Source: an uncultured Acidimicrobiales bacterium | GTDB taxonomy: Bacteria > Actinomycetota > Acidimicrobiia > Acidimicrobiales > SZUA-35 | Length of the DNA stretch: 64,000 bases | Assembly (NCBI GenBank): GCA_938021675.1 | Contig: CALIFY010000063.1 | Location: forward strand, 1 to 64,000 | Reading direction: 5' to 3' | In this document: positions 26,295-50,792 of the stretch, piece after piece | How positions within the stretch are numbered: the stretch's first letter is position 1 | Layout of the letters: every line of letters starts with the position of its first letter | Position numbers and translations under genes: made by a program | Notes under the pieces: model-generated | What the model saw: the letters and a program-made list of their open reading frames with translations, nothing else | The model's database searches: none | Told to the model about the DNA's origin: nothing

Positions 26295-27143
26295 CTAACA
26301 GCGTGACACCGATCGACACAACGGTCCTACGACACGATTGAGACGGTCGGGTAATTCGACATCCGTCTCCAACACTTGTCGAGGCACAGTCAGGGCGAGC
26401 CCAAACCGACCTCCAACCATCGACAGACCCCGGTACTGAGGGATCTTGTCGAATACGATCTCAACCACCTGATCGACCGACGACGAGACAGGACGACAGC
26501 TCAACACGTCCTCAGCGGCGGTTAGGCCGGTGAGGAGCGTCTTTCCTAACGCTTCGCGACCTGTCCAGGCCGCCAACGGTGCCAAATCAGGATCCACCCC
26601 ATGGCCAACAAATCGATCAATGAACTCGTCTCCAAGATGTTGGCTGACGACTCGGCAGGTTCGCTCGCTTCTTACCTCGACATCGACACCCATGGGAAAG
26701 GACTGGTCGAACGCCACCGAGGCTGCGTATCCACCACTGTGGGCGATACCGACCCTGACCCCTCGACAGTCGCCAAGGACGACAGGTTGTCCGAACACTC
26801 CGACACCGATGCAAACGAGATTCGGGTCGGCGGTGATTCCAACCGATGCGATGGCCACCTTGGCCGCGATCCGTCCCAGGCGAAACTCATCGGCCCGCCG
26901 ATGAGAACGCCTGCGAAGCATGTCGATCCTCCCCAACTCCGATTGATGGAGTAGACGCTCGTCGATTGGTAGCCGTTCAACGGTCCGATCGCGGCTCGAT
27001 GATCGCTCGGCCGAACGGCAGCCGTCGGCGCTCCTGTTGTTCGGACCGACGACAACCAGCGCCCCAAAGGCCAATTCAGCGGTAGCAGCACCTATCGGTA
27101 GCTTCGCGACGAAAAGTCCACTGGTAGCTGCGGTGCTAGACAT
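26295..27143 (-). CDS. 4'-phosphopantetheinyl transferase (Sfp type)
   Basis: The product has 282 residues from the ATG at 27143, which overlaps the 3' end of the SDR gene by 8 bp; a longer in-frame start exists inside that gene. It shows the Sfp-family pattern: RADEFRLGRIAAKVA, the GVGVFGQP/IAHSGGYAASVAF block, the Mg-binding GVDVEV, and W-T-x-x-E-A-x-x-K (AAWTGREALGKTLL). These enzymes move phosphopantetheine from CoA onto the active Ser of carrier domains. As the last gene of the PKS operon it most likely primes the four ACPs of the two synthases upstream. Confidence 0.83.
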   Translation of the reverse strand: MSSTAATSGLFVAKLPIGAATAELAFGALVVVGPNNRSADGCRSAERSSSRDRTVERLPIDERLLHQSELGRIDMLRRRSHRRADEFRLGRIAAKVAIASVGITADPNLVCIGVGVFGQPVVLGDCRGVRVGIAHSGGYAASVAFDQSFPMGVDVEVRSERTCRVVSQHLGDEFIDRFVGHGVDPDLAPLAAWTGREALGKTLLTGLTAAEDVLSCRPVSSSVDQVVEIVFDKIPQYRGLSMVGGRFGLALTVPRQVLETDVELPDRLNRVVGPLCRSVSRC

Positions 27144-28038
27144 CGAGAGCCGTACAAAATTCCCACAACTGTTTGGCGTTCTCGGACACCTGGCTGAGCT
27201 CGGATGGCGGACGAGGTTTCGTGCCACTCACATACTTGTCGGTCCATCCTGCCGCGTCGTCGGAGACGGCTAGCCACGCAAGAGCACGAGCCGAATCTAC
27301 GACCCGACGAGCTTCCGGCATCCTCACGATCAGTGGGATAACCGCCCGATACAGCTTCTGAACCATCGCCGGGTACTCGCGGTCGAGACCAGTCTCGGGC
27401 ATCAAGCCCGGATCGAAGGTATTGGCCGTGATCCCGTTATCGGCAAACCTGCGATTGACTTCGGTGGCAAGGTAGATAGTGGCCAACTTCGAGTTCGCGT
27501 AGCGGACTCGGCCAGCCTGGCTTGACTTCGACACATCCGGACCGGGAAAGAATAGGTCGTCGGGTTTCGTCCATTTGGGGGCAGGAAAGCCCCACGCCGA
27601 CAGCCCACCGCGATGGGTTTCGCTACCGAGGAAGATGATTCGGGCTCCGGGCTCAAGAATTCCGATCATCTCTGAGCAAAGTCGATGGTGAGCGAGAACG
27701 TTCACTGCCATGGTCAGTTCGACGCCGTCGACCGACTGTTTCACGCCGTCAACCACTTGCAAACCGGCGTTACAAACAATCACATCGGGTCGGCCGACCG
27801 ATCCGGAAGTGAACTTCGAAGCTGCGGCAGACACCGACGACAAACTAGCCAGGTCACAATCGACGACCTCAACTCCGCCGTTGGTCGACAGGCCGGCGGC
27901 TTCTTCAGCGAGCTCAGACCCCTTCGCCGCGTCGCGGACGAGGGCGATGACAACATGGTTTTGTCGGACGAGCTCAAGCGCAGTGGCTTTGCCCAATCCT
28001 GATGTCGCACCAGTAATAGCGATTCGACGAGAATTCAT
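27136..28038 (-). CDS. short-chain dehydrogenase/reductase of the PKS operon
   Basis: The protein has 300 residues; its ATG at 28038 overlaps the GMC oxidoreductase stop (ATGA). It is a classical SDR with an N-terminal TGATSGLG cofactor loop, DCDLASL, the CNAGLQ strand, the catalytic Ser in FLGSETHRGG and YANSK (Tyr-x-x-x-Lys). It resembles the protochlorophyllide-reductase/retinol-dehydrogenase-like branch (NTFDPGLMPETGL). In the operon it is placed to reduce or oxidise a carbonyl/alcohol of the product, for example the aldehyde released by the reductase domain. The exact reaction is inference. Confidence 0.88.
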   Translation of the reverse strand: MNSRRIAITGATSGLGKATALELVRQNHVVIALVRDAAKGSELAEEAAGLSTNGGVEVVDCDLASLSSVSAAASKFTSGSVGRPDVIVCNAGLQVVDGVKQSVDGVELTMAVNVLAHHRLCSEMIGILEPGARIIFLGSETHRGGLSAWGFPAPKWTKPDDLFFPGPDVSKSSQAGRVRYANSKLATIYLATEVNRRFADNGITANTFDPGLMPETGLDREYPAMVQKLYRAVIPLIVRMPEARRVVDSARALAWLAVSDDAAGWTDKYVSGTKPRPPSELSQVSENAKQLWEFCTALDV

Positions 28039-29642
28039 CGTCCTCGACCTCCCGATGCCGACGCCGCGCTGGCACCGATGGCGTTGCGATCAAGGGCGTT
28101 GGTGATGCAACGGTCGGCCAGTGCCGTCACGGTCAACGCTGGAGGAACCGCACCGGTAGAACCGGGGATAAGGCTGGAATCCATGACGAACAGTCCGGGA
28201 CTACCGTTGAGTTGGCCGACGTCGTCGGTGGCGTAACCCAAGGCGGCACCTCCGAGCGGATGGGAAGTAATCAGGCTGGTGGCCAGCTTGACATCCCGAC
28301 CGGGGGTTCCATCACTGATGTCGTCGGCGATCGACCGTACCGAGTTACGAACAGCACGAACACCGGCGTTCCACACCGGCCACACCGGAACGCTGAAATC
28401 GTTGGAGAATCGGGCCACCCGGCCCACAGCGGGAACCGGTGCGGTGGCGAGCGATTCTCGCAACAGCGCGTCGACCGCAGGTACCCCAAGAGGAAAGTTC
28501 AGCATTGTCACCGGCGGGTCGCCGGTATCCCATGCCTGCCCAACGATATGGGAAGGGCCGCCCACTGCCGGGTTGGGATTCGGAGTGCCGGAGAACAACA
28601 CAATTGAATCGCCATCAGTACCCCATCTCCTACCGATTTCTGGCCCGAGACCAGGGATCGAACCCGATGCCCGAGCATTTAGAAGAAGCTTGACCGAACC
28701 AAGAGAGCCGGCGGCCAACACCACCGAGGTTGCGTCAATCCGGTCTTCTCTTACTATCGAGCCGTCATCGGCGAGTTCCTCGTACGAAACTCGGTATCCC
28801 GTCGACGTCGACTCGATAGTCGTCACTTGATGTAGCGGTCGAACGTCGACGAGTCCCGACTGCTCAGCGGTGGCCAAAATGGTACGGTCGACGCTTCGTT
28901 TGGCTCCACTGTTTACTCCAAACAACGACTGACCGCGGATCAGTGATGGCTCGGCCGTCCCGGCGATCTCGTTGCGAACGATATCCCAATCGACGGCAAG
29001 ATCGGGCCGGACGATGTCGAGACCGGCACGCGACATCTCGTCTTGGGCCTGGCGAGCATTGGCATAGGCCGCCGAGGCCAGGACATCATCGGGTATCGGT
29101 GTTGGCCCGACCAGTTGTCGAGCCCGCGGGTACCAGGTCGCACTCATGTCGTCATAGTCGAGTGCCCCTCGAAACGACAGATCGAAGTGATCCCTGCGGG
29201 GCATCATCATCACCGCGTTATTGACGAGCGAACCCCCGCCGACGCCGGCCCCAGCCAGGCAAATGATGCCGATTCCGGCCACCGCCTCCAACACTCCGGT
29301 AAACCGATCGACCCGGCCATCGAAAACGGGAAGTGAGGTGTCGAGCCACACCGCTCGACCATCAATATTGTCGCCGGTAGCGAACGTGTCGCCAGCTGGG
29401 TTGATCGGCCATCGTCGCCCACGTTCCAGCACAACGCTCTGCATTCCGGCCTCGCTTAGCCGAAGAGCGGCCACCGAACCGGCGTACCCCGAGCCGATGA
29501 TGACAACATCGGCTCGGTTCGTTGCCGCTGCAGCTCCACTTGCAAACACCCCGGGCATAGCCAAGAGAGTCGAGGCGGCTGCCGCACCTTTGACGAACGT
29601 CCGCCGACTGGTTTGGTTTGATTTTCTACTATCACTGGTCAC
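28035..29642 (-). CDS. Tat-exported GMC oxidoreductase (cholesterol-oxidase-like)
   Basis: The protein has 535 residues. A twin-arginine signal (TSRRTFVKGAAAASTLLAM, then AAA) precedes a FAD-binding fold (VVIIGSGYAGSVAALRLSEAG). The GMC pattern is present (GAGVGGGSLVNNAVMM, VVLAAGSLGSVKLLLNA), and the C-terminal active-site region has SHPLGGAALG and DSSLIPGSTGAVPPALTVTALADR. It most resembles flavin cholesterol oxidase/GMC alcohol oxidases. It starts 2 bp after the P450 stop and overlaps the SDR gene, so it is co-transcribed. Export implies that one oxidation step happens outside the membrane, after or during product export. Its substrate is unknown. Confidence 0.88.
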   Translation of the reverse strand: MTSDSRKSNQTSRRTFVKGAAAASTLLAMPGVFASGAAAATNRADVVIIGSGYAGSVAALRLSEAGMQSVVLERGRRWPINPAGDTFATGDNIDGRAVWLDTSLPVFDGRVDRFTGVLEAVAGIGIICLAGAGVGGGSLVNNAVMMMPRRDHFDLSFRGALDYDDMSATWYPRARQLVGPTPIPDDVLASAAYANARQAQDEMSRAGLDIVRPDLAVDWDIVRNEIAGTAEPSLIRGQSLFGVNSGAKRSVDRTILATAEQSGLVDVRPLHQVTTIESTSTGYRVSYEELADDGSIVREDRIDATSVVLAAGSLGSVKLLLNARASGSIPGLGPEIGRRWGTDGDSIVLFSGTPNPNPAVGGPSHIVGQAWDTGDPPVTMLNFPLGVPAVDALLRESLATAPVPAVGRVARFSNDFSVPVWPVWNAGVRAVRNSVRSIADDISDGTPGRDVKLATSLITSHPLGGAALGYATDDVGQLNGSPGLFVMDSSLIPGSTGAVPPALTVTALADRCITNALDRNAIGASAASASGGRGR

Positions 29643-29644
29643 TT

Positions 29645-30844
29645 TTACACCTCGGCTTTGATCAAGAATGGCAAGTGGGAGTACCCATAGGAGCCTTGAC
29701 GAAGTCGCAGCTGCGCAGGGTCATTTGGATCTTCAGCAAGTCGACCGATATGGGGGTACCACCCTTGGAATGTCTTCTCGGCTAGCAGACGAGACAAGGT
29801 AGCGCCAGGACAGAAATGAGAACCACCGCCGAACGCTTGGTGGGATTGGGACTTCGGTCGATCGATATCAAACTCGTCGGGACGTTCGAATTGACGGGGG
29901 TCCCGGTTAGCCGAACCGATGATGACGTGCACCAAGCCTCCTTCGGGAATCGTCACTCCGTGCAGATCGAGCTCGATCTTCGCCCGGCGGAGGACCCACT
30001 GGGTCGGTGGGTACATTCGTAAATACTCTTCGATGAATTTAGCAGTATCGCTTGGAACATCAATCAGTCGTTCGAGAAGTTTGGGGTTCTGAACCAAATG
30101 AAGTATGCCGCCACCGAGAAGGTTCATGGTGGTCTCATGACCAGCAGCTACGAACGCCCACGCAGTGACGGTCAACTCATCCCTGCTGATGGTTCCTTCC
30201 TTCTCAGCTTCGACCAGTAGCCCGAGAACATCCCCACCACTCGGCTGTTGACGCCGCTCTCGGGCGCGATCATCCATGTAGTTGCTAAAGGCCATGACAT
30301 CCTCAAAGAAGCCGGGCACTTCATCGGGGTCCATCCCTCCTGCAACCGCAAACATGTCCATCACCGCGTGTGACCATCTACGGAGATCAGCCTTACGGTC
30401 CAGTGGGATACCAAGTAAGGCGCTGATAACCCGTAGCGGCAGCATCGTTGAGTACGCATCAACAAATTCGACTCGGTCATCAGCCAAAATTCCCTCAATC
30501 AGCTCGTCGACCAACTCGGAAATCCACGGCTCCATTGCCTGGACCGCACGACCGGTAAACGAACGATTCGTGGTTTTTCGTATACGACCATGATCGGGGT
30601 TATCCCGATTTACCAATAGTGGAAGGTTTAGGTAGCCGTCGAGTCGAATCTGTGATGAAAAAGAAGTGGCGTCCCGGAACGCTCTATCCACGTCATCATA
30701 CCGGCTCAACACATAGACATCTTCACCCTCGTGCGTGTAATTCGGCAGATAGTGAACCGGATGCTCATCCCGCAGTTGCGCATACACCGGGAACGGATTG
30801 CTTCGATACGCCGGGCTGGCAAGATCGATTTCAAGACTAGTCAT
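29645..30844 (-). CDS. cytochrome P450
   Basis: The protein has 399 residues and no membrane anchor, like bacterial class I P450s. It has the I-helix oxygen motif AGHETT, the K-helix E-x-x-R (EEYLR), and the heme loop FGGGSHFCPGATLSR with the Cys ligand. The ATG at 30844 overlaps the stop of the second synthase (ATGA). It is presumably a hydroxylase or desaturase tailoring the polyketide lipid. No ferredoxin or ferredoxin reductase gene is in the operon, so electron partners must come from elsewhere. Confidence 0.92.
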   Translation of the reverse strand: MTSLEIDLASPAYRSNPFPVYAQLRDEHPVHYLPNYTHEGEDVYVLSRYDDVDRAFRDATSFSSQIRLDGYLNLPLLVNRDNPDHGRIRKTTNRSFTGRAVQAMEPWISELVDELIEGILADDRVEFVDAYSTMLPLRVISALLGIPLDRKADLRRWSHAVMDMFAVAGGMDPDEVPGFFEDVMAFSNYMDDRARERRQQPSGGDVLGLLVEAEKEGTISRDELTVTAWAFVAAGHETTMNLLGGGILHLVQNPKLLERLIDVPSDTAKFIEEYLRMYPPTQWVLRRAKIELDLHGVTIPEGGLVHVIIGSANRDPRQFERPDEFDIDRPKSQSHQAFGGGSHFCPGATLSRLLAEKTFQGWYPHIGRLAEDPNDPAQLRLRQGSYGYSHLPFLIKAEV

Positions 30845-33800
30845 ACTTTCCCCTCGCTAAGAACTCTTTCTTCGTCACGCTGTGGTTTTTGAACAACAAA
30901 TTCTCGAGCCAAGAACCCTTCTAGAAACGTATGGATAAGCGGTCCGTCTAACACCGGGCATGACATCGGCAAAGTGCTGAGCCGGGAATCGGTGAGCGAC
31001 GAGTCGAATACTGCCAGGTGGACGTCATCGATCATGTCGTTCATAAACGGCGCAAGACCCAATAAGGCCATCGTGCCCGACGAGCGATTCGTGACCTGAT
31101 GACGCCACTCGTCAAAGGGCAGGTGACGGAAACAGTACCCAAAATCTTCGATATGTTTGAACATTTCCGACCACTCCATCGGTGGATTGTTGACCAGGTG
31201 CGAGGTCTCGCCATAGAACTCACCTCCGATTGCCAGGTGAACCATAGCCGCCGCTACATAGTCGATCGGAGCGGCCTGAAGTGGGAAGCGACCAGAGGTG
31301 GGCGCTATACCCGCCTCGATACACCCCTTGAGAATTAGCGACAAATGATCGAGTCGATTAAACGCTCCGGTTTCGCTGTGCGGAGCGGTATTTATACGGT
31401 GGATTGTTACCGGAAGACCGAGTTCCCCCGCATTTCGTACCATGCGCTCGGCCACCCATTTGGTCTGGGCGTAGCCGACGGCCAACGGGCCACTCTCCAT
31501 CATGTCGGTTTGCTCAGAAACTTTGTCGTGAATCACGTCGCCCGACGAAAAGACACCAACAGTCGATGTGAGGTGAACGGGCCGCGCCGGCCCGACCGTA
31601 GCTAGCTCAAGAACATGGCGCGTGCCACACACGTTGGTCGGGGCCAACCGCTTGTAGTTCGAGGTCCACTTGACCTCGGCACCATTGTGGAAAATCTGAC
31701 CGATCCGAGCATGGAGTGCCTCGAAAGAATCGCTATCCAACCCGAATCTGGGTAGCGACAGGTCGCCGACAACGACATCGATGCGATTCCGGTAGTCGGC
31801 TAGATGAACCCCGAACGACGAGGTCGATTCCAGTAGACGACGAATGCCGTGCTCCTGATCCTCGGCCCGTACCAAGCACGTCACGTTGGCGGTGGTGGCC
31901 GATAGAAGTTCGTTGAGAAGAAACGCTCCAACGAAGCCCGTGGCCCCGGTCAACAAGATGTCGGCTGGAGCCTGGCCAGCCGGCTCGGGAGGGGTGACCA
32001 CGAGGTCGACCTCGGCCTCTGCGGCCATTGCCGACACATCCATGGTCCGACGGCGACGCCGTTCGCCAGCACGAGGCGCAGCCGACTCCCCGCCCACGAG
32101 TCGAACTACACCGGCGATCGAGACCGCATCCAACAAGTCGGCTTCTGCGATTGGCCGTTCAAAAGCCTCGCTGAGGCCTTCGGCGACTTCAACGAACATC
32201 AGCGAATCCATCATGTCGCTGAGCGGCTCGTCATCGGATAGTTTCTCAACCGTCGTACCGAGAACTGAGGCAATGATGTAGGCAACCCGCTGCTTCGGGT
32301 CGACCGGTAGCTGTTCCCGCCTCACTCCGGGGCGAACGTCGGCCAGCCGACGCAACGTCGACTCATCGACCGGCCCGTACCCGATACCGAACAGGGTCGC
32401 CAGGTACTCTCCCGACTCGGACTCGATCCGTATGTCACAATCGGTCCCCGATGGCGACAGTTCTGCCGTGGCGATCATGACATCGGGCAACCGAGCGGTC
32501 GAGCGTTCGAAGCGTGTGAAGCCTGTTCCCAGGTGCACGGGACCGCTGGCATCGGCGGTTCCGATCAGAGAACCAGCCAATTGGACACAGGCATCAAGTA
32601 CCAGCAACTCGCTGCGGACGCCGCTGCGAGTGCCAGCACACCGAGAATCGGGCAGGACGAGCCGACCGGTGATCGTCCCATCGACTGCGGTGGCCTCGGT
32701 GACCAACGTGAAGCTCGGCCCGAGTGTGAACTGCGGATGCCAACCGTCTCGGTAGAAGACCGGGTCCGGGATCGGCACCTCGACCTCCGGCCCGGCGCTA
32801 TCTCCCCCGCCACCCTCGGCAGACGTCTCCACGGTCGGAGGCGACAGGTCACCGCCATAGACCAGTTCGGCTTCAAGGTGAACCCGGCGACGGCCGTCGG
32901 TGTCGGCGCTGACCACACGGGCCATAGAACGACCATCTTCCTTCGGCCCTAACTCCACCGATAGCTCAACGCCGCCACCTTCTCTCAGCACCACCGGCCG
33001 CTCGATGCGCAGCCGGCTCGGTGTTACCTCCTGATCAAACCGTTGTTCTGCTGTCCGAAGCAGTGTTTCGAGGTACACGACCCCGGGAACGACCGACAAT
33101 CCATACACGGTGTGTTCGGCAACGACCGGGCAGCGCGAGAGATTCACCATCGCCCGACCCGTTGCTCCACCGTCGGCATTGGCGGTCACCTGGACGTCGA
33201 GACCCACGGCTTGGAGACCGGCCTCAGTCGACAGATCTCGATACCACAACGGAACCCGATCCCAGGCGTAGGTCGGCAACTCGACGAATCCCGAGGCGAG
33301 CGGGAAGCAGCGAGCCCACTCCACCGATCCTCCGGCCAACCAGTACGCCACGACCCCCTCAATAAGATGTAGAGCTACGGACCGACCGTCACCGACCAAC
33401 AGGTCAAGCCGCACGTCGCAATCCGCGTCCACCGTCGATGTGGCGTTCGCCGCAGCCATAAGTGTCCGGAGCCGGGTACAGGTGCCAAGAGATTCTGCCC
33501 AGACGACTTGGGCCTCGGCAGATCCGACGTCGGCGTCGTCGATCGGCTGCTCGGCATCGCCCCCATCGTCGACGGTGAGCTCAAGGCCCCGTTTCGTAGA
33601 AAGAACACCAGCGACCGCGGCGGCCAAATAGCCGTCGCGCCCCTGTGCCTCCACTATCTCCGGTCGGAGCCCGACCGATTTCCACCACATCGAGAGAGCA
33701 CAAGCGGTAATCGAATCTTGCGGGGCTGATGCGACGTCGAGACCGTCAAGATGGGCGAGCACGTCGTCCGCGTTGGGAACGTCGGCGAAGGCGACAGGTG

Positions 33801-41600: not shown

Positions 41601-44600
41601 GAGTGGGTCGAAGACTCCGGCCAGGGCCGCGGCCGCATAACTTCCAACACTGTGTCCGAGGACGGCAACGGGCTGAACCCCAATCTCCTGCCACCACGAG
41701 CCGAGGGCGTACGCCAATGCGTACAACGCGGGTTGCGCCATATCGGTGCGGCGCAATCGTTCCTTGGATTCGGGTGAGCCGTCTACCAGGATTCTCAGCG
41801 GCCATTCGTCGACTGATCCAAACCGGTTCACCGATTCGGTGATGGTTTGCTCCCGTCCATAGATCCCGTCGAGAACACCAGCGATCGGTGCACCATGACC
41901 GGGAGCCACGAACGCAACCTTTGGCGGGGCGCCGGCGACAACCCGGCCTCGGGTCCTGGAACCGGTCACCGCATCTTCCAAACCTTTGCTCAATTCGAGT
42001 CGGTTGGAGGCAATGACGAACGACCGTTCTGCCAGATCGGCCCGTGTGGCGTTGGCCGAGGCGGCCAACGTCTCCAGATCGGTCGAGGAGCGGCCGTCGA
42101 CCCAACCAGCGAGTCGACCGGCCACCCCGAACAGCGAGGCTTCGGTCGCCGCCGACATCTTGACCAGTACCGGACTCGATGCGTCGGTCTGCTCCGTCGG
42201 CACAGAGGGGGTACGTCCAACGTTGTTTCCGACGATGACATGGGCATTGGTCCCGCCGAAACCGAACGACGACACACCGGCAAGTCTCGTCTCGTCGTTC
42301 CAGGTTGTAGCGTTGCACGACAGCCGAAGACCGCCGTTCTCCCAGTCGAAGCCGGCGGTAGTTTCAACTACACCTGGCTGTGGTGGCAGCACCCCGGTGT
42401 CGGTTACCAGAAGCGCTTTGATCAGGCCAACAACTCCGGCCGCAGCTTCCAAATGGCCGACGTTGGCCTTGACCGCGCCTACCACAACAGGCCGCTCAGG
42501 TTTCGTGGCCAAAGACCGAGACAAGGCACGTGCCTCGACCGGGTCGCCCAGTGGCGTACCGGTTCCGTGAGCTTCGACGTATCCAATGGCCGAGGAGTGG
42601 ATGTTGGCGTCAGCTAGGGCCGCGGATACCACCGCACTTTGCGCCCGACCATTGGGCGCGGTAAGACCGTTGCTGCGGCCGTCCTGATTCATTGCCGAGC
42701 CGAGCAGCCGACCACGGGGCGGAAGCGAACTATGCTCGACGTCGGACCGGTGGAGCACAAGCATGGCCCCACCCTCACCCCGGATGTATCCGTCGGCTCG
42801 GGCGTCGAACGGTCGACACCATCCGCTGGGAGACAACATCCGAGACTGACAGAGGGCGACCGAAACCCTCGGATCGAGCATTAGGTTGACCCCGCCGACC
42901 AAGGCGACGCCGCACTCCCCCCGCCTCAACGACTGCATCGCCAGGTGGACGGCGACCAGCGACGACGAACAGGCGGTATCAACAACAAGACTTGGCCCTT
43001 CGAGCCCCAATGCGTAGGACAGACGGTTGGCGGCGAAATTCGATGCGCACCCCGTGCTCGTGTAGGCACTGGAGACCGTTGTTCCTCCGGTACCGATCCG
43101 CTCATAGTCACTTCCGGCAATTCCGATGAACACACCGGTATCGCTTTGCCGAATCGAGTCCGGCGCGATGCCGGCGTCCTCAAGTGCCGCCCAGGCCAAC
43201 TCCATCAGCATCCGCTGCTGGGGGTCGATCTCATCGGCCTCGGCCTTGGTCAACCCGAACAGCGGCGAATCGAATCCGGCGACGTCGTTGAGGAAGCCGC
43301 CTCGTGTGGTGTAGGCCCGCCCAGGTTGCACCGGCATCGGCGCATGGAACCGACCGGCGTCCCAGCGGTCTACCGGCACCTCACCCAAGGCCGAACGGCC
43401 GTCGATCAGCAACTGCCAGAAATCGTCGGGATTCTCGACGCCCCCCGGCAATCGACACGAGAGGCCGGCCACTACCACAGCGCGTTCATCGCCATCATCG
43501 CCGTTGGCCAGTGAATCGGTCGAACCGTTCGGATCGGGGGTGGTGACCTGCGCGCCGAGGGCCAGCACCGCGTCGGCGACCTCGGTCAACGAACCGGCTT
43601 CCCACGCCAATGACGGTGGGATCTCGTAACCGAGTTCCTCGCTCAGGCTCCCCGTCATCTCGATCACCTTGACCGAATCAACGCCGACCTCGGACAATGG
43701 CGCCGAGGGATCGAAGCTGTTGACCGGCCGATCGGTCAGCTCGGCTAACAATGAGATCAACCGGCCAACAGTCTGAGCAACCTCCGTTTTTCGGGTGTCC
43801 TCTTGACCCTCGACGCCATCGACGACCGTGTCGGTGTCTTTGGATCGGTCGACCAACGTGTGGAGGGTGCCCTTGAGGTACTGGTCTTTCGCCGCCGACC
43901 GTCGGATCTTCCCACTCGACGTGACCGGCAAACTATTGCGGCGGACCAATACCACGGCGTCGAGCGAGACCTCAGCCTCGGCTGCGACGATTTGGCGAAC
44001 CGCCCGTTCTACGGCGTCATACCCGTGCTCGGGCGTACGGCGGTCCCGAACTTCAACAGCCGCCACCACGTCCTCGCCAGACTCGCCAGCCACGCTAAAC
44101 GCTGCGGCCCGGCCCCCATGGAGCACCGGGTGCGCGGTGCTGGCCAGTTCCTCGATGTCTTGGGGGTAGACGTTTCGACCATTGACGATCAGGAGATCCT
44201 TCAACCGACCGGTAACGAACAGTTCGCCATTGTGCATCGCACCGAGATCGCCGGTCGCCAAGAACCGACCGGACGATTCGGTCGGTTCCACTCCAAACAC
44301 CGCTTGGGTCGCTTCCGGGGCACCGTAGTAACCCAAGGCCACCGACGGTGAGGAAACCAACACCTCGCCAACCTGGCCATCGGGCAACACGTCACCGTTT
44401 TCTCGATCGACAATCATCACCGTGGCATCTGGTTCGATACCGCCACAGCTGACCAGCGTCGACGACGGCGCGTCGTCCGCTGCCGGTCGGAGTCGCCCAC
44501 TATCTAGATCGCTACGAGAGGCAGCAAAGAAGTTCGGTTTTCTGTCGCCGGGGTGGCGGCCAGAAACTAGCAGCGTCGTTTCGGCCATTCCGTAGCAGGG

Positions 44601-45539
44601 CCGAAACGACGATGCGTTGAACCCGCATCCGGCAAAGGCAGAAGCGAATCGCTCGAGGGTGTTGGCCCGGACCGGCTCAGCGCCGTTGAGTGCATGAGTC
44701 CAGCTGCTGAGATCAAGGTCTTCGATCTCGTCCTCGGTGATGCGGTCGACGCATAGGTCATAGCCAAAGTTGGGAGCTGGGCTAATCGTCGCCCCCAGCT
44801 CGCTTATCGTTCGGAGCCAAATAACCGGCTTGCGGATAAAGGTGGCCGGCGCCATAAGGGTCGACTCGAAACCGAGTACGACCGGGGTGACGATGCCGCC
44901 GATAAGTCCCATATCGTGGTAAGGAGGCAACCAGCTCACCACGATGCTGTCGCTCGCCAGCTCGAAGGTCGAGCGGCTGGCCTCGGCGTTGGCGATCAGG
45001 TTTTGATGGGTAACCATGACACCTTTTGGCTGACCGGTTGAGCCGGAGGTGTACTGCAAGAATCCGAGTTCCGACCCGTCGACGCCTGCACCGTTGCCGG
45101 GTAACCCGCCCTCAGGTTCGTTGGCGCCTTCGTTTACTGCCAACCACTGAGCCCGTGGCGCCAGTTCGTCGCGATCTTCAACCCAACTGGCGTTTAGGTC
45201 AGGGCAGAGGACGACGCTGGGATCGCAGTCTTCAGAAATGGCTCGGACTCTGCCTCCGTGTCGTCGGTTGATCGGGGGGAATGCGGGGACGGCGACAAAT
45301 CCACCGGCGAGACAGCCAAAGAAGCTGACCACGTAATCCAAGCCAGGAGGGTTGAGAAGCAGAACTCGGTCACCTATCGAGGCCACTGAACCAAGCCGTT
45401 GCTCGACGGCAAAGACTCGACTAGCCAACTCTAGGTTTGAGATTGATTCAGTTGTCCCGCCTGGGGCTATAAACCGAAAGGCAACCGCGTCCGGATCCCT
45501 GTCGGCGCGGTCAAGAAGCAACATCCCAATGTTTGTCAC
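35613..45539 (-). CDS. FAAL-loaded bimodular type I polyketide synthase
   Basis: The protein has 3308 residues; GTG 45539 follows GGCGGAG, and ATG 45524 is an alternative. FAAL/AMP-ligase is at 1-555 (YTSGSTGQPKG at 163-173, GYYG, TGDLG) and loads a fatty acid on ACP1 (587-660, Ser622). Module 1: KS 686-1105 (Cys857, His991, His1029), AT 1207-1500 (GHSVG, Ser1297; AFH, His1400), ACP2 1615-1695 (Ser1653), no reducing domain. Module 2: KS 1776-2200 (Cys1945, His2080, His2126), AT 2310-2620 (GYSAG, Ser2398; AFH, His2502), KR 2695-3110 (GGRGSLG, Tyr3052), ACP3 3172-3255 (Ser3210). An acidic tail may dock to the next synthase. AFH in both ATs suggests malonyl-CoA. No condensation domain, so it is not an NRPS. 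Confidence 0.93.
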   Translation of the reverse strand: MTNIGMLLLDRADRDPDAVAFRFIAPGGTTESISNLELASRVFAVEQRLGSVASIGDRVLLLNPPGLDYVVSFFGCLAGGFVAVPAFPPINRRHGGRVRAISEDCDPSVVLCPDLNASWVEDRDELAPRAQWLAVNEGANEPEGGLPGNGAGVDGSELGFLQYTSGSTGQPKGVMVTHQNLIANAEASRSTFELASDSIVVSWLPPYHDMGLIGGIVTPVVLGFESTLMAPATFIRKPVIWLRTISELGATISPAPNFGYDLCVDRITEDEIEDLDLSSWTHALNGAEPVRANTLERFASAFAGCGFNASSFRPCYGMAETTLLVSGRHPGDRKPNFFAASRSDLDSGRLRPAADDAPSSTLVSCGGIEPDATVMIVDRENGDVLPDGQVGEVLVSSPSVALGYYGAPEATQAVFGVEPTESSGRFLATGDLGAMHNGELFVTGRLKDLLIVNGRNVYPQDIEELASTAHPVLHGGRAAAFSVAGESGEDVVAAVEVRDRRTPEHGYDAVERAVRQIVAAEAEVSLDAVVLVRRNSLPVTSSGKIRRSAAKDQYLKGTLHTLVDRSKDTDTVVDGVEGQEDTRKTEVAQTVGRLISLLAELTDRPVNSFDPSAPLSEVGVDSVKVIEMTGSLSEELGYEIPPSLAWEAGSLTEVADAVLALGAQVTTPDPNGSTDSLANGDDGDERAVVVAGLSCRLPGGVENPDDFWQLLIDGRSALGEVPVDRWDAGRFHAPMPVQPGRAYTTRGGFLNDVAGFDSPLFGLTKAEADEIDPQQRMLMELAWAALEDAGIAPDSIRQSDTGVFIGIAGSDYERIGTGGTTVSSAYTSTGCASNFAANRLSYALGLEGPSLVVDTACSSSLVAVHLAMQSLRRGECGVALVGGVNLMLDPRVSVALCQSRMLSPSGWCRPFDARADGYIRGEGGAMLVLHRSDVEHSSLPPRGRLLGSAMNQDGRSNGLTAPNGRAQSAVVSAALADANIHSSAIGYVEAHGTGTPLGDPVEARALSRSLATKPERPVVVGAVKANVGHLEAAAGVVGLIKALLVTDTGVLPPQPGVVETTAGFDWENGGLRLSCNATTWNDETRLAGVSSFGFGGTNAHVIVGNNVGRTPSVPTEQTDASSPVLVKMSAATEASLFGVAGRLAGWVDGRSSTDLETLAASANATRADLAERSFVIASNRLELSKGLEDAVTGSRTRGRVVAGAPPKVAFVAPGHGAPIAGVLDGIYGREQTITESVNRFGSVDEWPLRILVDGSPESKERLRRTDMAQPALYALAYALGSWWQEIGVQPVAVLGHSVGSYAAAALAGVFDPLAGFELITERGRLCQELVVDGAMLAMRLGHEDPICQQLLADRRLQVAVVNSKKDTVIAGPAAAIEEAMAALRAEGKQGVRLGVSRAFHSPDMESVLDELGTAVQRAQPSAPTLPFVSDRTGALATDVDNAQYWRDHTRQTLDFSGAVSTIRSMADIIIELGPAMLTGLIERCDGPATHALASLHRGGTPGSGTKGLLEAVGGIWLEGAPIKWNRLLPTDRPLTRLPTYPFESRHHWVDDERWQRGLELAGLGADGSDTSVLASTLDHNPSRERAADLRDQTTDTESAGRQHQSFASVHVGSGGPDLADLVTELRSLLAPRLGVGTEQLPLDVGLFDLGLTSVMATELKEELERRFTVELGSTALFDYPTLRRFAEYLVDAIGAQAHRETLEPPSGLNAPENEDRAESVGRPTSSVKQRSGNWFTESSSDWASLIGATEPPSRRSDLALSAPVAPSTSETSRSQADIAIVGMGCRFPGGANDPASYWSKLVAGYDGTSELPDGRWVDLDDAESMETPLVTRAGFLQADPWMFEPSAFGMSPREARSTDPQQRLLLEVVWEALDDAGIAPTSLAGGAAGVYVGMNTSDYLNNHQYYETAGADPYLVTGNTASVASGRIAHLLGTTGPAITLDTACSSALTACHEAVLALRRGDVDLAIVGGINLMLSARTTRSLMEIGALSPSGRSQSFGAAADGYGRGEGCGVVVLKRAGDARRDRDRSWAVIRGSAVNHDGSTAGLTVPSGPSQKALITAALNDASVDPNEVSFVEAHGTGTPLGDPIELEALSTALRPASSIAGQREPLPDLTVGSAKANIGHLEAAAGIAGLIKLALGLNRKQLPIHVGSQCRTELVDWEKLGLRVADRTEEWVSPGRRHGAVSSFGFSGTNAHMVLAEAVDLDPDPPSDSPDGAVPQTATLVMSSSSAEGLVATANRYAEFLENTDASLAEIAWTALERRDHHRHRLAISAESTRETVGVLRQWCQDGQTGPRLATGQGFDPLDRQIVTVFSGHGTQWNGMVSAAALDAQAVSRLEHFDRLLQALGGGPLSTTGWWDSGRLSDRFAALTAIQITMIEAWKRAGLTIDRSIGYSAGELAALVAADVLDAEDALALAFRRGQLIDASPPSGATAAVGLGASAVTDLIADRPAADICIAAISGVNSTTVAGTDDLVKMVEQAARDAGTWATRLSDTVAFHSPRLMPAIDRAGGFDGPSLSGTLDSDRIWLPSQRNEASSSLDLPWWLQDLVLPVPFTDVVAQAVDRPSVFLQVGPAPDLGSSIRDQVPEDRLLCLVDAVMPGLDAASHMARTAGKLFTVGVRVDPLLSAPPSRPVDLPMRSWRRTSHSFGHLREQSSRRRSTKSAALNEATFRVEWSERSIDEGLQTDVNPPPDRWLVVGTDGEVVESMVDGLADAGHDACSLITDLSPGVLVDAVAGELTERLIDVEPIGLVVVGQRTGRRVDDARHDEIDAACAVLEVVQLFQRLDRPVRLWLVTPNGSTAGNTSIVDEAGSQLNLSAVGLWGLGRAMAVETPHMWGGMIDPGHSVDRPDRLVAELLCADGEDQVAYRHGQRWCPRLVAREVAVPLDTEILSPHGSYVVTGGRGSLGLRMARWLAGRGARHIVLTGRTPIDEDLAGAPSEVTEVVTDLRAEGVTVHLPPIDITKDDDVARLFSSESKWPAVRGVLHLAGVFEPSEIGELSVGEMRATWRPKVEGAQLLDRWAQRTGVDFLLLFSSASSVWGTAHAPQYVAANYGLDVLAERAQADGRPVVSVNWSWWANSNMAGHADDYFLRMGLPPITEEMAWAALDSVVTDTANHQLVVALVDWRRFKPVMEARRRRPLLCEVGLAGNDGESGELANTLADLPVNRRLSHLMQTVRSVVSLALGRSTDDLVAVDQGLFDAGMDSMMSMEVKVELESMTGLELDAAFILEYPRIVDIADQVLTMLGLGGDDGDVHINEDELAVLPVTPTTAFLSTDTADGLDDLGEAELAFLLNVELANGGPQ

Positions 45540-45911
45540 CGCAACATCTCCGCCTCTATCTCCAGCTCTATTTGGAGACCCGAACTATCTGCTGCATGAG
45601 GTGTTGCTTGAAACGTGACAAACTTACACCTAAATCTTCTCATTCCTATTTCCCTCCGCATCGTCTAGTCAGCAATGTAATTCGAGTTGTGGTTGTAGAA
45701 GTGAGTTCACGGGTATCCGGATTGGCCAGTACTCCCAAATATTCGTGCGCCGCAAGCACACCTTTCAGGAATTTAGGCAACAAACACCGACGGGTGAAAC
45801 CCGCTATTTACAACTGAGCGGCTGTCGGCCAAGGAACTACATATCGGTCCCAAATTCTGATGATGGGACGCGTGTCGCCGGCGCAGATAGCGCCAGCTGC
45901 AAAGATGCAGC
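45540..45911. other. 372-bp AT-richer gap ahead of the PKS operon
   Basis: There is no credible gene on either strand. The stretch is visibly AT-richer than both neighbours and lies directly upstream of the FAAL-PKS start, so it probably contains the PKS operon promoter and the 3' untranslated end of the MMPL gene. I could not place convincing -35/-10 boxes or a strong terminator hairpin. Confidence 0.5.
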
Positions 45912-48233
45912 TCAACCCACGCCGACAGACCTCTGGGACTCAGCTCTGGCCAGAGACGAAAGTGCCGGCACATCCTGTGTTCCTTCCACACCGATTGAGG
46001 GAAGGATCCGATCAAGCCAACCGGGCAACCACCAGTTTCGGGTTCCCAACAGCTGCATCGTCGCCGGCACCAATAGCATGCGCACAATCGTCGCATCTAA
46101 AAATACGGCAACGGAAAGACCGACTCCGAACATCTTGAGGATCCGGTCATCTTCCAAAAGAAACGCTCCGAAGACCACGACCATGATGGCGGCAGCGGCC
46201 GAGATCACCCGAGCGGTTGCCGCCAAGCCGTCGGCGACTGAGTCCCGAGGATCACCGGCGCTGTCGTACTCTTCCTTTATTCGCGAGAGCAGGAACACCT
46301 CGTAGTCCATTGACAACCCGAAGACGATAGCGAACATCATCATCGGCACGAAGGGTTCAATAGGCCCGGCAGAAACGCCAATCAATCCACCCAGCCAGCC
46401 CCACTGAAAGATGACGACGATAACACCGTATGCCGATCCGATCGACAGTAGGTTCATGATGACTGCTTTGAAGGGAACCAAAATCGAACGAAACACCATC
46501 ATCAACAAAATGAAGCTGAGCCCCAGAACTGCGGCAAAGAAACCAACCATCCGGTTGGCCAGATAGTTCGTGAAATCAATATTGGCTGGCACACCACCAG
46601 TTACCTCGGCCGAGAGACTAGACCCAGCGATCGCAGCCGGAATTACGTCGCTACGTAACGTCTGCACCAAGTCCTTGGTGGCATCATCCTGAGGCGCCGT
46701 GGTCGGAGTTACTTGGATCAGTACCGCCTGCGGGTTGGCCGGATCGTTGGGAACGGGGCCAAGTACGAACTGAACCCCTGACGTTTGGGAAATAGCCGTT
46801 GCCAAATCGACAGCTACAGCCAGATCGCTCGGGGAGCCAAGTTCGCCGGCGACGAAGAACGGCCCATTGGCCCCTGGACCGAATCCTTCGGCTAGAAGAT
46901 CGTAAGCTTGGCGGGTACTGGTGGTTTCGGGAAAGTTGCCTTCATCACTGAATCCCATCCGCAGTCCGAGGACCGGAGAAGCCACAACAACCAACAACAG
47001 CAACCCAGCGGATGCGAAGATGAGCGGCCGAGCCTGAATCAATCGACTCCAGCGATACCACACTGTCTGCCGCAGCGGTTTGGATGGCCGGCGATGAATC
47101 TGCCTGTTCAACACCGGCACAAAGAACGAGAGTCCCATACCGACCACCGACAACACCAGTGGCACAAGTGCGCCAGAAAACCCTAGCCCGGCCATGAACA
47201 AACCGAGTGCCAAAAGGCCGGCGGCAACTACGTGACCGACTCTCGTGACCTCAACTCGTTTACCTGCCACTCCTAGAAATGCCGGAAGCAGCGTAACCGA
47301 AGCCAGCATGGTGACCATGACGGTGACCGACGAACCAACTCCGACACCAGTCATGAAATTGACGCCGAGCAGGGTCATACCGAGAAGCGACGTTACTACC
47401 GTTATCCCAGCGAAAAGGACGGCTCGGCCGGCCGTGTCTATTGCGGTCCCAACCGCTTCGAAATTGCTTACCCCGGTCTTCAACTCGTCGCGGTACCTGG
47501 TAACGATGAAGAGCGCATAGTCAATTCCAACCCCCAATCCAATCATGGCCCCAACCTGAATTGAGAAGTCTGGCATATCTACCAGGTGACTCAGAAGAGT
47601 GATCAACCCTGCGCCGACCCCAACGCCGAATACCGCCGTTCCAACCGGAAATGACATGGCGGCAACTGAGCCAAAGGCAAGTATCAACACGATTACCGCG
47701 AAGGCCAAACCGATCAGCTCAGACTCGGGAGGCTCGAACGCAGCCAGAACGTCACCACCAATTTCAACCCTGAGGCCATCGACCTGAGGTCGTGATGCCA
47801 TCAGTTCGGCGCCAATTTCTCCAGCTTGCTGTTGATCCACACCCTCTGCGATCGTCAACAATGCGTAGCCAACCGTGCCATCTGGAGAGATCTGCTGCCG
47901 TCCCTGTTCGCCGTAGGGACTGACAACACTGAAACCATCAATCGCCGCTACCTCGGCAAACATGGCCGACATGGCGTCGACTACTTCGGGGTCATCCGCC
48001 CCCTGTTCAGCCTCGAAGACGATCGTGCCCGATTGTCCGGCCCCGATTCCGTCGAAGTGCTCCTCAAGTATCTCGAAACCATCCGACGTTTCTGAAGCAG
48101 GCACATCAAAAGTAGCGTTGAACGCGGATCCTAGCGCTATGGCCCAACCGACAACGGCGACCATGGAAAGCACCCACAGCAGAATGGACAGCACAGGGTT
48201 ACCGAAAGACCACTGCCCGACTCTCGTTAGCAT
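45912..48233 (-). CDS. MMPL/RND-family lipid exporter
   Basis: The protein has 773 residues; ATG 48233 has AGGAG at proper spacing. It has two similar halves, each with one helix, a large extracytoplasmic loop and a five-helix bundle. The family's proton-relay motifs are present: GLGVGIDYALFIVTRYRDEL in the first half and GLSMDYEVFLLSRIKEEY in the second. MMPL proteins move complex lipids and siderophores across the membrane in mycobacteria and relatives. Its position between an acyl-CoA dehydrogenase and a FAAL-PKS operon on the same strand makes it the likely exporter of the PKS product. Confidence 0.9.
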   Translation of the reverse strand: MLTRVGQWSFGNPVLSILLWVLSMVAVVGWAIALGSAFNATFDVPASETSDGFEILEEHFDGIGAGQSGTIVFEAEQGADDPEVVDAMSAMFAEVAAIDGFSVVSPYGEQGRQQISPDGTVGYALLTIAEGVDQQQAGEIGAELMASRPQVDGLRVEIGGDVLAAFEPPESELIGLAFAVIVLILAFGSVAAMSFPVGTAVFGVGVGAGLITLLSHLVDMPDFSIQVGAMIGLGVGIDYALFIVTRYRDELKTGVSNFEAVGTAIDTAGRAVLFAGITVVTSLLGMTLLGVNFMTGVGVGSSVTVMVTMLASVTLLPAFLGVAGKRVEVTRVGHVVAAGLLALGLFMAGLGFSGALVPLVLSVVGMGLSFFVPVLNRQIHRRPSKPLRQTVWYRWSRLIQARPLIFASAGLLLLVVVASPVLGLRMGFSDEGNFPETTSTRQAYDLLAEGFGPGANGPFFVAGELGSPSDLAVAVDLATAISQTSGVQFVLGPVPNDPANPQAVLIQVTPTTAPQDDATKDLVQTLRSDVIPAAIAGSSLSAEVTGGVPANIDFTNYLANRMVGFFAAVLGLSFILLMMVFRSILVPFKAVIMNLLSIGSAYGVIVVIFQWGWLGGLIGVSAGPIEPFVPMMMFAIVFGLSMDYEVFLLSRIKEEYDSAGDPRDSVADGLAATARVISAAAAIMVVVFGAFLLEDDRILKMFGVGLSVAVFLDATIVRMLLVPATMQLLGTRNWWLPGWLDRILPSIGVEGTQDVPALSSLARAESQRSVGVG

Positions 48234-48337
48234 GACAACTCTCTCCTGGACTCGTAACTGGCGGCGACAACAAGGCGAGTACCCAACCTGGCCATCTGCT
48301 GTTCCCCGTCGCAGAGTCTTGAAACGAGAGCGAACTA

Positions 48338-49606
48338 CTAATTCTTCGGCAGCTCGTTGAATGGCACATCACGCGGCACGCCAGGTTCCTTTGGCAGACC
48401 GAGGACGCGCTCACCAATGATGTTTCTCTGGATCTGATCGCTGCCGCCGTAGATAGACGGGGCACAGGCATGGAGAGCCAGCTCAGCAATACTCGGATCG
48501 GTTTCCGAACTGGCCGGCGCCAACATCCCGTCCGCCCCGATGATGCGGAGGCTGACCGTCCGAAACTGGCGGTGAATCTCGGCGTCATACAGCTTGGCGA
48601 TGTTCGGCTCGCCACCGGTTCGCTGCCGAGGCTCCCGAGCACGTTGCAGGTTGAGGCGGTTCACCCGAAGCATGATGTAGAGCCCGACTACCTCTTGACG
48701 AAGCACCGGGTCGCCGATCCTCCCCAGCCGGCGGGCCAATTCGACATACCGGGAGTAGAGGCTCATCCCTACCCCTGGTGGCCGACCGGTCGATCGGCGC
48801 CCAGAACCAGCCTCTTCGACGATGTCGCCGACCCGACGACCAAATCTGCCAGCCCGCTGACCGGCGGCGGCCAAGATGTTTCCCGCCGACCCGGCACCGA
48901 TACTCGATCGCTCATAGGCCAGAGTGGTGTTAGCAACCCGCCAACCATCACCTCGACCACCGATCATGGCGCCGTGACCCACCGCGGCGCGGTCCATGAA
49001 GACCTCGCTGAAAAACGTTCGTCCCGTCATTTCTCTGAGAGGGCGAACGTCGATGCCGTCCTGGTTCATCGGGATGGCAAAGTATGAAAGTCCTTGATGC
49101 TTTGGAAGATCGGGGTCGGTGCGGGCGATGAGCATGCCAAGGTCGGCGTAGTCACCGCCCGATGTCCAAACCTTTTGGCCGGTGATCGACCATTCGTCGC
49201 CGTCTCGCTCTGCGCTGGCTTGGACCCCGGCTAGGTCCGACCCTGCAGCTGGTTCAGAAAAGAGCTGACACCACGATTCTTGCCCGTTGAGAATCTGGGG
49301 GATGTAGCGCTCGATCTGCGACGGGGTGCCATAGTCGGCGATGGTCGGTGCGGCCAGCATGTAGCCGAGCCCGGGGGCCGGGCCGACGACCTTCCGCTCG
49401 GCAAAGACCCGCATGGCACGAAGCTCCATGCCGTGAGACCAGCCCTTGCCGAAGGCATGCTCCGGCAACGCAGGGTGGGCGTAGCCGGAGTCGGCCAACA
49501 GTTGCCACCACTCCCCCAGCGTGGCGTCCGGATCCCAGTTGTGGTCGATCCACGCCGAAACTTCGGCCTCCACATCGATGCCATCTTTTGATCGACCGTC
49601 CGACAT
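48338..49606 (-). CDS. acyl-CoA dehydrogenase family protein
   Basis: The product has 422 residues from the ATG at 49606; a GTG at 49651 would add 15 residues not typical of the family. It is FAD-dependent acyl-CoA dehydrogenase-like: LFSEPAAGSDLAGVQ and ITGQKVWTSGG in the flavin-binding beta domain, then the C-terminal helical domain with YGGSDQIQRNIIGERVLGLP. It oxidises an acyl-CoA to the enoyl-CoA, or acts on an acyl carrier substrate. The gene lies 104 bp upstream of the MMPL gene and could shape or supply the fatty starter for the PKS. Confidence 0.88.
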   Translation of the reverse strand: MSDGRSKDGIDVEAEVSAWIDHNWDPDATLGEWWQLLADSGYAHPALPEHAFGKGWSHGMELRAMRVFAERKVVGPAPGLGYMLAAPTIADYGTPSQIERYIPQILNGQESWCQLFSEPAAGSDLAGVQASAERDGDEWSITGQKVWTSGGDYADLGMLIARTDPDLPKHQGLSYFAIPMNQDGIDVRPLREMTGRTFFSEVFMDRAAVGHGAMIGGRGDGWRVANTTLAYERSSIGAGSAGNILAAAGQRAGRFGRRVGDIVEEAGSGRRSTGRPPGVGMSLYSRYVELARRLGRIGDPVLRQEVVGLYIMLRVNRLNLQRAREPRQRTGGEPNIAKLYDAEIHRQFRTVSLRIIGADGMLAPASSETDPSIAELALHACAPSIYGGSDQIQRNIIGERVLGLPKEPGVPRDVPFNELPKN

Positions 49607-49757: not shown

Positions 49758-50792
49758 CTACTCGCCGAGAAGCGACTCGGCGATATCTCCTCCCGGGCCT
49801 GCGATCGGTTGAGCGTCGGCCGGAGCCTCAATGGTCAGGTCGGCACCAAGATCGGAGAACCCGATCGAGAGGTTGAACACCGCCGCCCCTTCCCCATCAC
49901 TCGGCTCATTCAGATCACCAGAGAGCTCGAGTTTCCGGAGCAGCCCGTCAGCGTCGACGAACAGATCGACCTGCACCTCGCCTTCAACATCGACATCGGC
50001 GCCATCAATCGGCAACCAACCCGCCTGTCCAAGCGACTCGTCCTGAAGATCGACGACACTCTGATAGTGGGTGGTCTCGACCCCATCGACGGTCACCGTC
50101 CCGACCTCGGACGCCTCGACCAGTTCCTCAACCCGTTCGAGAACCGAACGAGGATCGATCGCGTCCTGCAACTGTTCACCGAGGAACTCCGGCGCTTCGA
50201 TCGAATACCACTGTGTGCCGTCGCCGATGTAGACGACCCCATCGACCAGTCGACTCTCGCTCACCGGGAGGTCCTCAAAGCCAGCATCGGACGGGGCCTC
50301 ATCAATAGCGATAGTGGCCTCAAAATCTTCACCGGAGAACGCTGCGTCGACCCGACCTGTGAGACTCTGCGACTCTGCCCCATCGGTCCCGTCGGCGTCG
50401 GCCACGATCGTCACCCGTCCCGAGTCGACTTCGGACGTAGCGGCCGCCGCGCTATGAACCGCCGCGAGCGCCGGTTCGGTACTTTGAGGGGCCAACGTCA
50501 GGGCACCGGCGACAAGAAATACGACAGCAGCGGCGCTGGCGATCAGATAGCCGAGCCGACGGCGAGGCTTTCCGGCCTGCCGCTTGGCTTGAGTCACCGC
50601 TGGATGTTCCAGTGGTTCCGATTGGTGGTTGATGGGACTGGTCATCGTTTCCTCGTCATTCATGATGCGCTCGATGAGCTGCTGGGTCGTTGGGTCGCCG
50701 GGCGAGGGAAGCGCCGAGTCGACCACGGGATCGGACTGACGAAGCTGATCCATCAACTCTGCGTCAGACAATGGCATGTGATCTTCGGTCAT
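49758..50792 (-). CDS. membrane-anchored probable anti-sigma factor with extracytoplasmic domain
   Basis: The protein has 344 residues; its ATG overlaps the sigma-factor stop (ATGA). Residues 1-80 are cytoplasmic, with no clear zinc HxxxCxxC motif. One transmembrane helix lies at about 82-102 and is followed by an outside domain of about 240 residues, rich in beta strands (SGRVTIVADADG, RLVDGVVYIGDGTQWYSIEAP, YQSVVDLQDES). The outside domain is reminiscent of LppX/LprG-type lipid-carrier folds, but I cannot confirm this. The position directly behind an ECF sigma gene is the main evidence for an anti-sigma role. Confidence 0.7.
   Translation of the reverse strand: MTEDHMPLSDAELMDQLRQSDPVVDSALPSPGDPTTQQLIERIMNDEETMTSPINHQSEPLEHPAVTQAKRQAGKPRRRLGYLIASAAAVVFLVAGALTLAPQSTEPALAAVHSAAAATSEVDSGRVTIVADADGTDGAESQSLTGRVDAAFSGEDFEATIAIDEAPSDAGFEDLPVSESRLVDGVVYIGDGTQWYSIEAPEFLGEQLQDAIDPRSVLERVEELVEASEVGTVTVDGVETTHYQSVVDLQDESLGQAGWLPIDGADVDVEGEVQVDLFVDADGLLRKLELSGDLNEPSDGEGAAVFNLSIGFSDLGADLTIEAPADAQPIAGPGGDIAESLLGE

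Follow-up and report, generated by a model that had tools for sequence, protein, structure and literature searches.

The salicyl unit of micacocidin is built by a PKS primed by a fatty acyl-AMP ligase (FAAL). FAAL-primed type I PKS/NRPS lines, among them those of olefin synthase, micacocidin (a FAAL fusion with a C6 starter) and desmamide, are reviewed in PMC11837247, a text in which no word begins with "reductase" or "aldehyde". Type A dehydrating bimodules have the order KS-KR-ACP-KS0//DH-ACP, transfer the chain without extending it, usually carry A-type KRs and give Z double bonds, and the KS0 of a characterised one reads Cys-Asn-His in place of the usual triad (PMC8456789). In the irumamycin PKS, the AT of the last module is dead, yet the structure requires a two-carbon extension there; in the same work a missing YGP tyrosine is taken as a sign of DH inactivity (PMC11672594). 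The 6-methylsalicylic acid synthase (6-MSAS) goes through a 3-hydroxytriketide, with dehydration taking place on the tetraketide, and the 6-MSAS-like mellein synthase yields an R-alcohol (PMC4950124).

The window, that is, the whole stretch of 64,000 nucleotides of an uncultured Acidimicrobiales bacterium that we analysed, holds a locus made of parts of known kinds, with the following features:

48338..49606 (-), acyl-CoA dehydrogenase (ACAD), left out of the operon; paired with MMPL in congeners that lack the PKS
45912..48233 (-), MMPL transporter, left out of the operon; kept in the genus without the PKS
45540..45911 (-), gap of 372 bp between MMPL and PKS1, where the operon probably has a promoter of its own
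35613..45539 (-), PKS1, 3308 aa, FAAL-ACP1-KS1-AT1-ACP2-KS2-AT2-KR-ACP3, by Pfam/NCBIfam and catalytic motifs
43857..45512 (-), FAAL domain of PKS1, by structure match and tree; NCBIfam FAAL models match below their cut-offs
42375..43484 (-), KS1, C-H-H triad present
41118..41912 (-), AT1, malonyl-type, GHSVG and AFHS motifs
38868..40151 (-), KS2, C-H-H triad present
37770..38597 (-), AT2, malonyl-type, GYSAG and AFHS motifs
36294..36845 (-), KR, with the Trp typical of A-type KRs and without LDD; catalytic S, Y and N present
30841..35616 (-), PKS2, 1591 aa, KS3-AT0-DH-ACP4-TR, by Pfam, NCBIfam, alignment and motifs
34363..35484 (-), KS3, the sister of KS1, with its C-H-H triad in place
33247..33891 (-), AT0, remnant of an acyltransferase, shortened and without the active-site motif; most like AT1 by alignment
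32458..33180 (-), DH, PF21089 at 47.7 bits, PF14765 at 20.0 bits (below cut-off)
30898..31959 (-), thioester reductase (TR), TIGR01746 at 279 bits, 4u7w_A at 235 bits
29645..30844 (-), cytochrome P450, by Pfam; heme-Cys, I-helix and ExxR motifs present
28035..29642 (-), GMC oxidase of the cholesterol-oxidase type with a twin-arginine signal, by Pfam, comparison with cholesterol oxidases and motifs
27136..28038 (-), short-chain dehydrogenase/reductase (SDR), by Pfam/NCBIfam and motifs
26295..27143 (-), PPTase, divergent Sfp-type, by motif; Pfam score under the cut-off

The eight minus-strand ORFs that the first-pass annotation had placed in order between 26295 and 49606 were all recovered by an ORF and translation check, and so was the tight run of six, described as overlapping by 4-8 bp or lying 2 bp apart. 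PKS1 and PKS2 overlap by 4 bp, as do PKS2 and the P450 gene and, further on, the GMC oxidase and SDR genes; the P450 and GMC oxidase genes are 2 bp apart, and, with the ATG at 27143 taken as the PPTase start, the SDR and PPTase genes overlap by 8 bp. With all five junctions between -8 and +2 bp (-4, -4, +2, -4, -8), the six genes (PKS1, PKS2, P450, GMC oxidase, SDR and PPTase; 26295-45539, minus strand) almost certainly make one transcript, and we refer to them as the operon. Of the proposed single locus of eight genes only this run stands, whereas MMPL and ACAD are separate, with 372 bp from the 3' end of MMPL to PKS1 and 104 bp from the 3' end of ACAD to MMPL, and form a pair in congeners without the PKS. 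A search for a sigma-70 consensus in the 372-bp gap found none; the GC content falls to 55% there. As for island boundaries of the operon, no tRNA was found and the GC profile dipped only locally, around 30.0-31.5 kb and again around 45.0-48.0 kb. A 703-aa protein with OmpA peptidoglycan-binding and PnrA/Bmp-like substrate-binding domains (window 24169-26280) is encoded convergently to the operon, facing its PPTase end.

Pfam and NCBIfam searches gave for PKS1 one FAAL, three ACPs, two KSs, two ATs and one KR. The FAAL is fused to an ACP and a KS module, the arrangement that marks FAAL-primed type I PKSs, and its best match among solved structures covers the full length of the PKS-embedded FAAL chains 7r7e-g (440 bits). 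Both ATs lie in cis with their active-site motifs present, and the domain search located a KR in module 2 only. The Trp of this KR, aligned with the template, lies in the sequence SSASSVWG and there is no LDD; by motif, the KR is of the A-type.

In PKS2, the same searches returned the KS, DH, ACP and thioester reductase that had been read there before; what the earlier reading overlooked is a dead, shortened AT. This AT0 spans residues about 575-790 of PKS2 (~215 residues, the KS3-DH interval), without GxSxG and without the AFH motif, and the region gave no AT family match either in Pfam or in an AT search of the own genome. Aligned locally, it scores 94 to AT1 versus 43 to AT2 and has AQGRDG at the site of the GHSVG of AT1; the motif around the catalytic serine is missing, as is roughly one third of the domain. 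KS3, in turn, is closest to KS1 (56% identity, SH-aLRT 100; best outsider 52%) and keeps the motifs DTACSS, HGTGT and KANIGH, hence a full Cys-His-His triad. The simplest history that these sequences suggest is a duplication of KS1-AT1, decay of the copied AT and joining to DH-ACP-TR; module 3 looks odd in having a dead AT beside a KS that appears alive. The DH keeps HxxxGxxxxP and LDxxxQ, the tyrosine of its YGP motif is replaced (LGP), and its C-terminal half falls under the Pfam cut-off; the serine of ACP4 is kept. A structure of AT0-DH predicted from the single sequence reached a pLDDT of 36, too poor for a fold search. The TR has a TGATGFVG nucleotide site and the Tyr-Lys motif GYAQTKW, matches TIGR01746 above its cut-off and has the MxaA R-domain (4u7w_A) as its nearest solved relative; reductive release by this domain is thus predicted with good support at the family level.

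Among the remaining genes of the operon, the P450 and the SDR were confirmed by Pfam and NCBIfam, which also bore out the MMPL and ACAD assignments. The GMC oxidase had been described as Tat-exported, and the GMC domain (Pfam) and a twin-arginine motif, SRRTFVK, are both present, which agrees with its predicted export. The protein is most like cholesterol oxidases, the active site of which consists of Glu361, His447 and Asn485; the His is kept (HPLGG) and the equivalents of Glu361 and Asn485, two of the three catalytic residues, are replaced. We rejected a true cholesterol oxidase on account of these lost residues, and the substrate is therefore probably a different alcohol. The PPTase held up in part: its sole Pfam match (4PPT_N) scores 20.6 bits, below the 27-bit cut-off, but the motifs GVDVE and WTGREALGK are present. 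A further comparison gave no significant match, and it was not matched by ACPS in a search of the own genome. More multi-PKS loci are found in the same genome (G000), on contig C5 at about 31-74 kb and on contig C66 at about 12-27 kb. As the C66 locus has its own better-scoring Sfp-type PPTase, the one in the window need not alone serve PKS1 and PKS2.

The chemical steps proposed here are all predictions, drawn against genes, domains, motifs, the dead AT, the KS1-KS3 kinship and the MMPL/ACAD synteny as observed. The FAAL would load a fatty acid onto ACP1; module 1 (KS1-AT1-ACP2) would add one malonate and leave a ketone, and module 2 (KS2-AT2-KR-ACP3) would add another, with the A-type KR giving a hydroxyl. 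The assembly line up to this point, together with reductive release, is in our judgment likely, and the domains, structure matches and motifs are consistent with the first-pass sequence of FAAL priming, an unreduced first extension, a KR-bearing second one, KS-DH-ACP and a reductive end. That scheme, however, had overlooked the KS1-KS3 duplication, the dead AT and the A-type KR, with which the predicted chemistry of module 3 changes. We tentatively propose that PKS2 forms the latter half of a dehydrating bimodule, in which AT0 would be unable to load an extender, KS3 would pass the chain to ACP4 without extension and the DH would eliminate water, probably to a Z-alkene; the TR would then release a 5-oxo-alk-2-enal or an allylic alcohol, to be further modified by the P450, the exported GMC oxidase and the SDR. 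Since module 3 has no KR, the only substrate for its DH would be the hydroxyl of module 2.

Transfer and dehydration are favoured by the lack of a working AT and of a KR in module 3 and by the A-type KR of module 2, whereas the intact triad of KS3 favours extension. Several observations argue against the bimodule: the Cys-His-His of KS3 differs from the Cys-Asn-His of the characterised KS0, and dehydrating bimodules are known from trans-AT PKSs, while PKS1 and PKS2 are cis-AT (PMC8456789); the DH has no YGP tyrosine, and irumamycin sets a precedent for extension despite a dead AT (PMC11672594); the model of AT0-DH, moreover, is poor. If module 3 does extend, ACP4 would receive malonate from AT1, AT2 or FabD, the chain would cyclise and the TR would release a 6-alkylsalicylaldehyde or its alcohol, an outcome that we consider rather unlikely. 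It would amount to a modular, non-iterative, fatty-acid-primed salicylate assembly, doubtful to the same degree, in which three modules do the work of the 6-MSAS iteration and the last one, its own AT having decayed, borrows its malonate. The keto, hydroxy, keto reduction pattern is that of 6-MSAS, the micacocidin PKS assembles a salicyl unit after FAAL priming, the KS3 triad is still intact at 44% divergence from KS1, and a free AT-type protein, probably FabD, occurs in the genome (C35, a frame of 434 aa); these points and the last cis-AT module of irumamycin, which extends with its AT dead, speak for the salicylaldehyde. On the other hand, malonate would have to be loaded in trans, no cyclase was identified, and the KR, judged A-type from its motif, contrasts with the R-alcohol of the 6-MSAS-like mellein synthase. 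It is unlikely, too, that module 3 is mostly vestigial, with KS3 relaying the chain, the DH inactive and the TR releasing a 3-hydroxy-5-oxo-acyl aldehyde or a 1,3-diol: the dead AT0, the lost YGP tyrosine and the sub-threshold C-terminal half of the DH point that way, but the His and Asp motifs of the DH and the triad of KS3 are kept.

The first-pass annotation had further assigned the MMPL to the PKS as a dedicated exporter, a role not supported, given the synteny of ACAD and MMPL in congeners that lack the PKS. Genus-wide DNA searches, fetched regions and protein comparison revealed that in two of these, G318 and G323, the genes are neighbours with the same orientation. The flanking genes 19688 and 22120 of the window recur in G318, again with the pair downstream of them and hence at the same chromosomal site; in the interval from these flanks to the MMPL, 4.6 kb with amidase-like and GGDEF genes, none of the six operon proteins finds a match. 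As this site lacks operon matches and a search of 11 congeners found the DH-ACP-TR half of PKS2 in none, the six-gene operon looks acquired beside an older MMPL/ACAD pair. Judged by synteny, MMPL and ACAD are backbone genes not dedicated to the PKS; some congeners carry other MMPL copies nearer in sequence (63-64% versus 57%), so the MMPLs of the pairs may not be strict orthologues, and the MMPL may possibly have been recruited for the new product. A mycobacterial-type complex-lipid locus of eight genes, to which the MMPL as exporter and the acyl-CoA dehydrogenase would both belong, would fit the common strand of all genes and the position of MMPL and ACAD directly upstream of PKS1; it is very improbable, however, given that G318 and G323 keep the ACAD-MMPL order without a match to the PKS operon proteins and that the FAAL falls outside the mycobacteria-like clade. 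In the FAAL tree, the window FAAL, on a long branch that makes its placement approximate, groups with PKS/NRPS-associated FAALs of Chloroflexota, cyanobacteria, Burkholderia and Nocardia (best 46% identity) and not within the 100/100 clade that FAAL-PKSs of presumed mycobacteria form. No TR was found beside the mycobacteria-like FAAL-PKSs recovered, and the resemblance to mycobacterial complex-lipid loci noted earlier was not sustained. Upstream of ACAD on the same strand (window 49758-51427), an ECF sigma factor gene overlaps a gene for a SCO4651-family lipoprotein; a PKS link is not indicated for this pair, as parts of it match an unlinked site in a congener (G323:C28).

A survey of 298 genomes of the order, 39 of the family and 396 of the phylum, the last being a thin sample, found no locus with the same architecture, and there was none among the best 80 TR loci of the genome collection in a search with a TR alignment. 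Nothing in these searches spoke against the first-pass view that no characterised pathway with this exact gene set is known. Neither these genomes nor the best 80 TR loci gave a close match to the DH-ACP-TR half of PKS2; a DH-ACP-TR search of the genome contigs gave no relative, an iterative profile search for DH relatives among the fetched loci none, and tblastn against plasmids with PKS2 no record covering 80%. Order-level matches to PKS2 were rejected as relatives, being generic KS matches, and a 3622-aa protein with a TR from the same family (G309/L097) was rejected as a homologue, being an NRPS/PKS hybrid with an aminotransferase. That locus (L097 1223-12088; also L172), from an Acidimicrobiales MAG of the window's family, holds an NRPS/PKS with a class III aminotransferase and a terminal TR, with a PPTase-like gene nearby. 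Provisionally, we regard the operon as an orphan cluster, with parts all of known kinds and an assembly-line order found nowhere else among the genomes sampled. Should the proposed pathway be true, it would provide a compact two-protein system in which to ask whether an AT-less cis-AT module extends, transfers or is loaded by a neighbour, the question also posed by irumamycin and the dehydrating bimodules, with the KS1/KS3 duplicate as a natural comparison inside one assembly line; it would also add to a little-studied actinobacterial order a lipid-polyketide pathway with an unusual exported oxidase.

Compared with the systems described, the operon is unlike the mycobacterial FadD/Pks/MmpL complex-lipid loci in having neither a FadD-clade FAAL nor a dedicated MmpL. 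It shares the FAAL-PKS fusion and the fatty-acid starter with the FAAL-primed type I lines and differs from them in ending in KS-AT0-DH-ACP-TR (PMC11837247); an olefin synthase was rejected, as the sulfotransferase-TE ending is absent. Its TR resembles the terminal reductases of the MxaA type in score (235 bits to 4u7w) and in the Tyr-Lys motif; unlike them, it is fused behind DH-ACP, and it has at most about 40% identity to the best TRs among the matches listed. The nearest architectures found are FAAL-to-TR proteins of Anaerolineae and, on a Burkholderia arboris plasmid, a FAAL-ACP-KS whose AT, placed before a DH, has decayed in a similar way. The former, recurrent single-gene megaenzymes of Anaerolineae and other Chloroflexota (L114, L126, L136, L138, L151, L160), likewise start with a FAAL (up to 46% identity) and end with a TR within a single line, FAAL-ACP-KS-AT-ACP-AMP-binding-TR; their second half is an AMP-binding domain, probably an NRPS module, and not KS-DH, and they appear to form a family of lipo-amino-acid synthetases with reductive release. 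In the plasmid PKS (L104 9943-17705), the decayed AT is followed by the first half of a DH, and a separate frame then encodes a luciferase-like monooxygenase, the rest of the DH, a KR and an ACP. With 6-MSAS and the micacocidin-type salicylate synthases the operon would share the reduction pattern if three extensions take place, and it differs from them in one module per extension, reductive release and an A-type KR. It also resembles the type A dehydrating bimodules of hangtaimycin and others, where an extending KS/KR/ACP with an A-type KR is likewise followed by KS-DH-ACP without a working AT, here with no extender-loading motif in AT0; unlike in those trans-AT systems, the first half has its own AT, the triad of the second KS is unimpaired, and the split between the proteins lies before KS3 rather than after the KS (PMC8456789).
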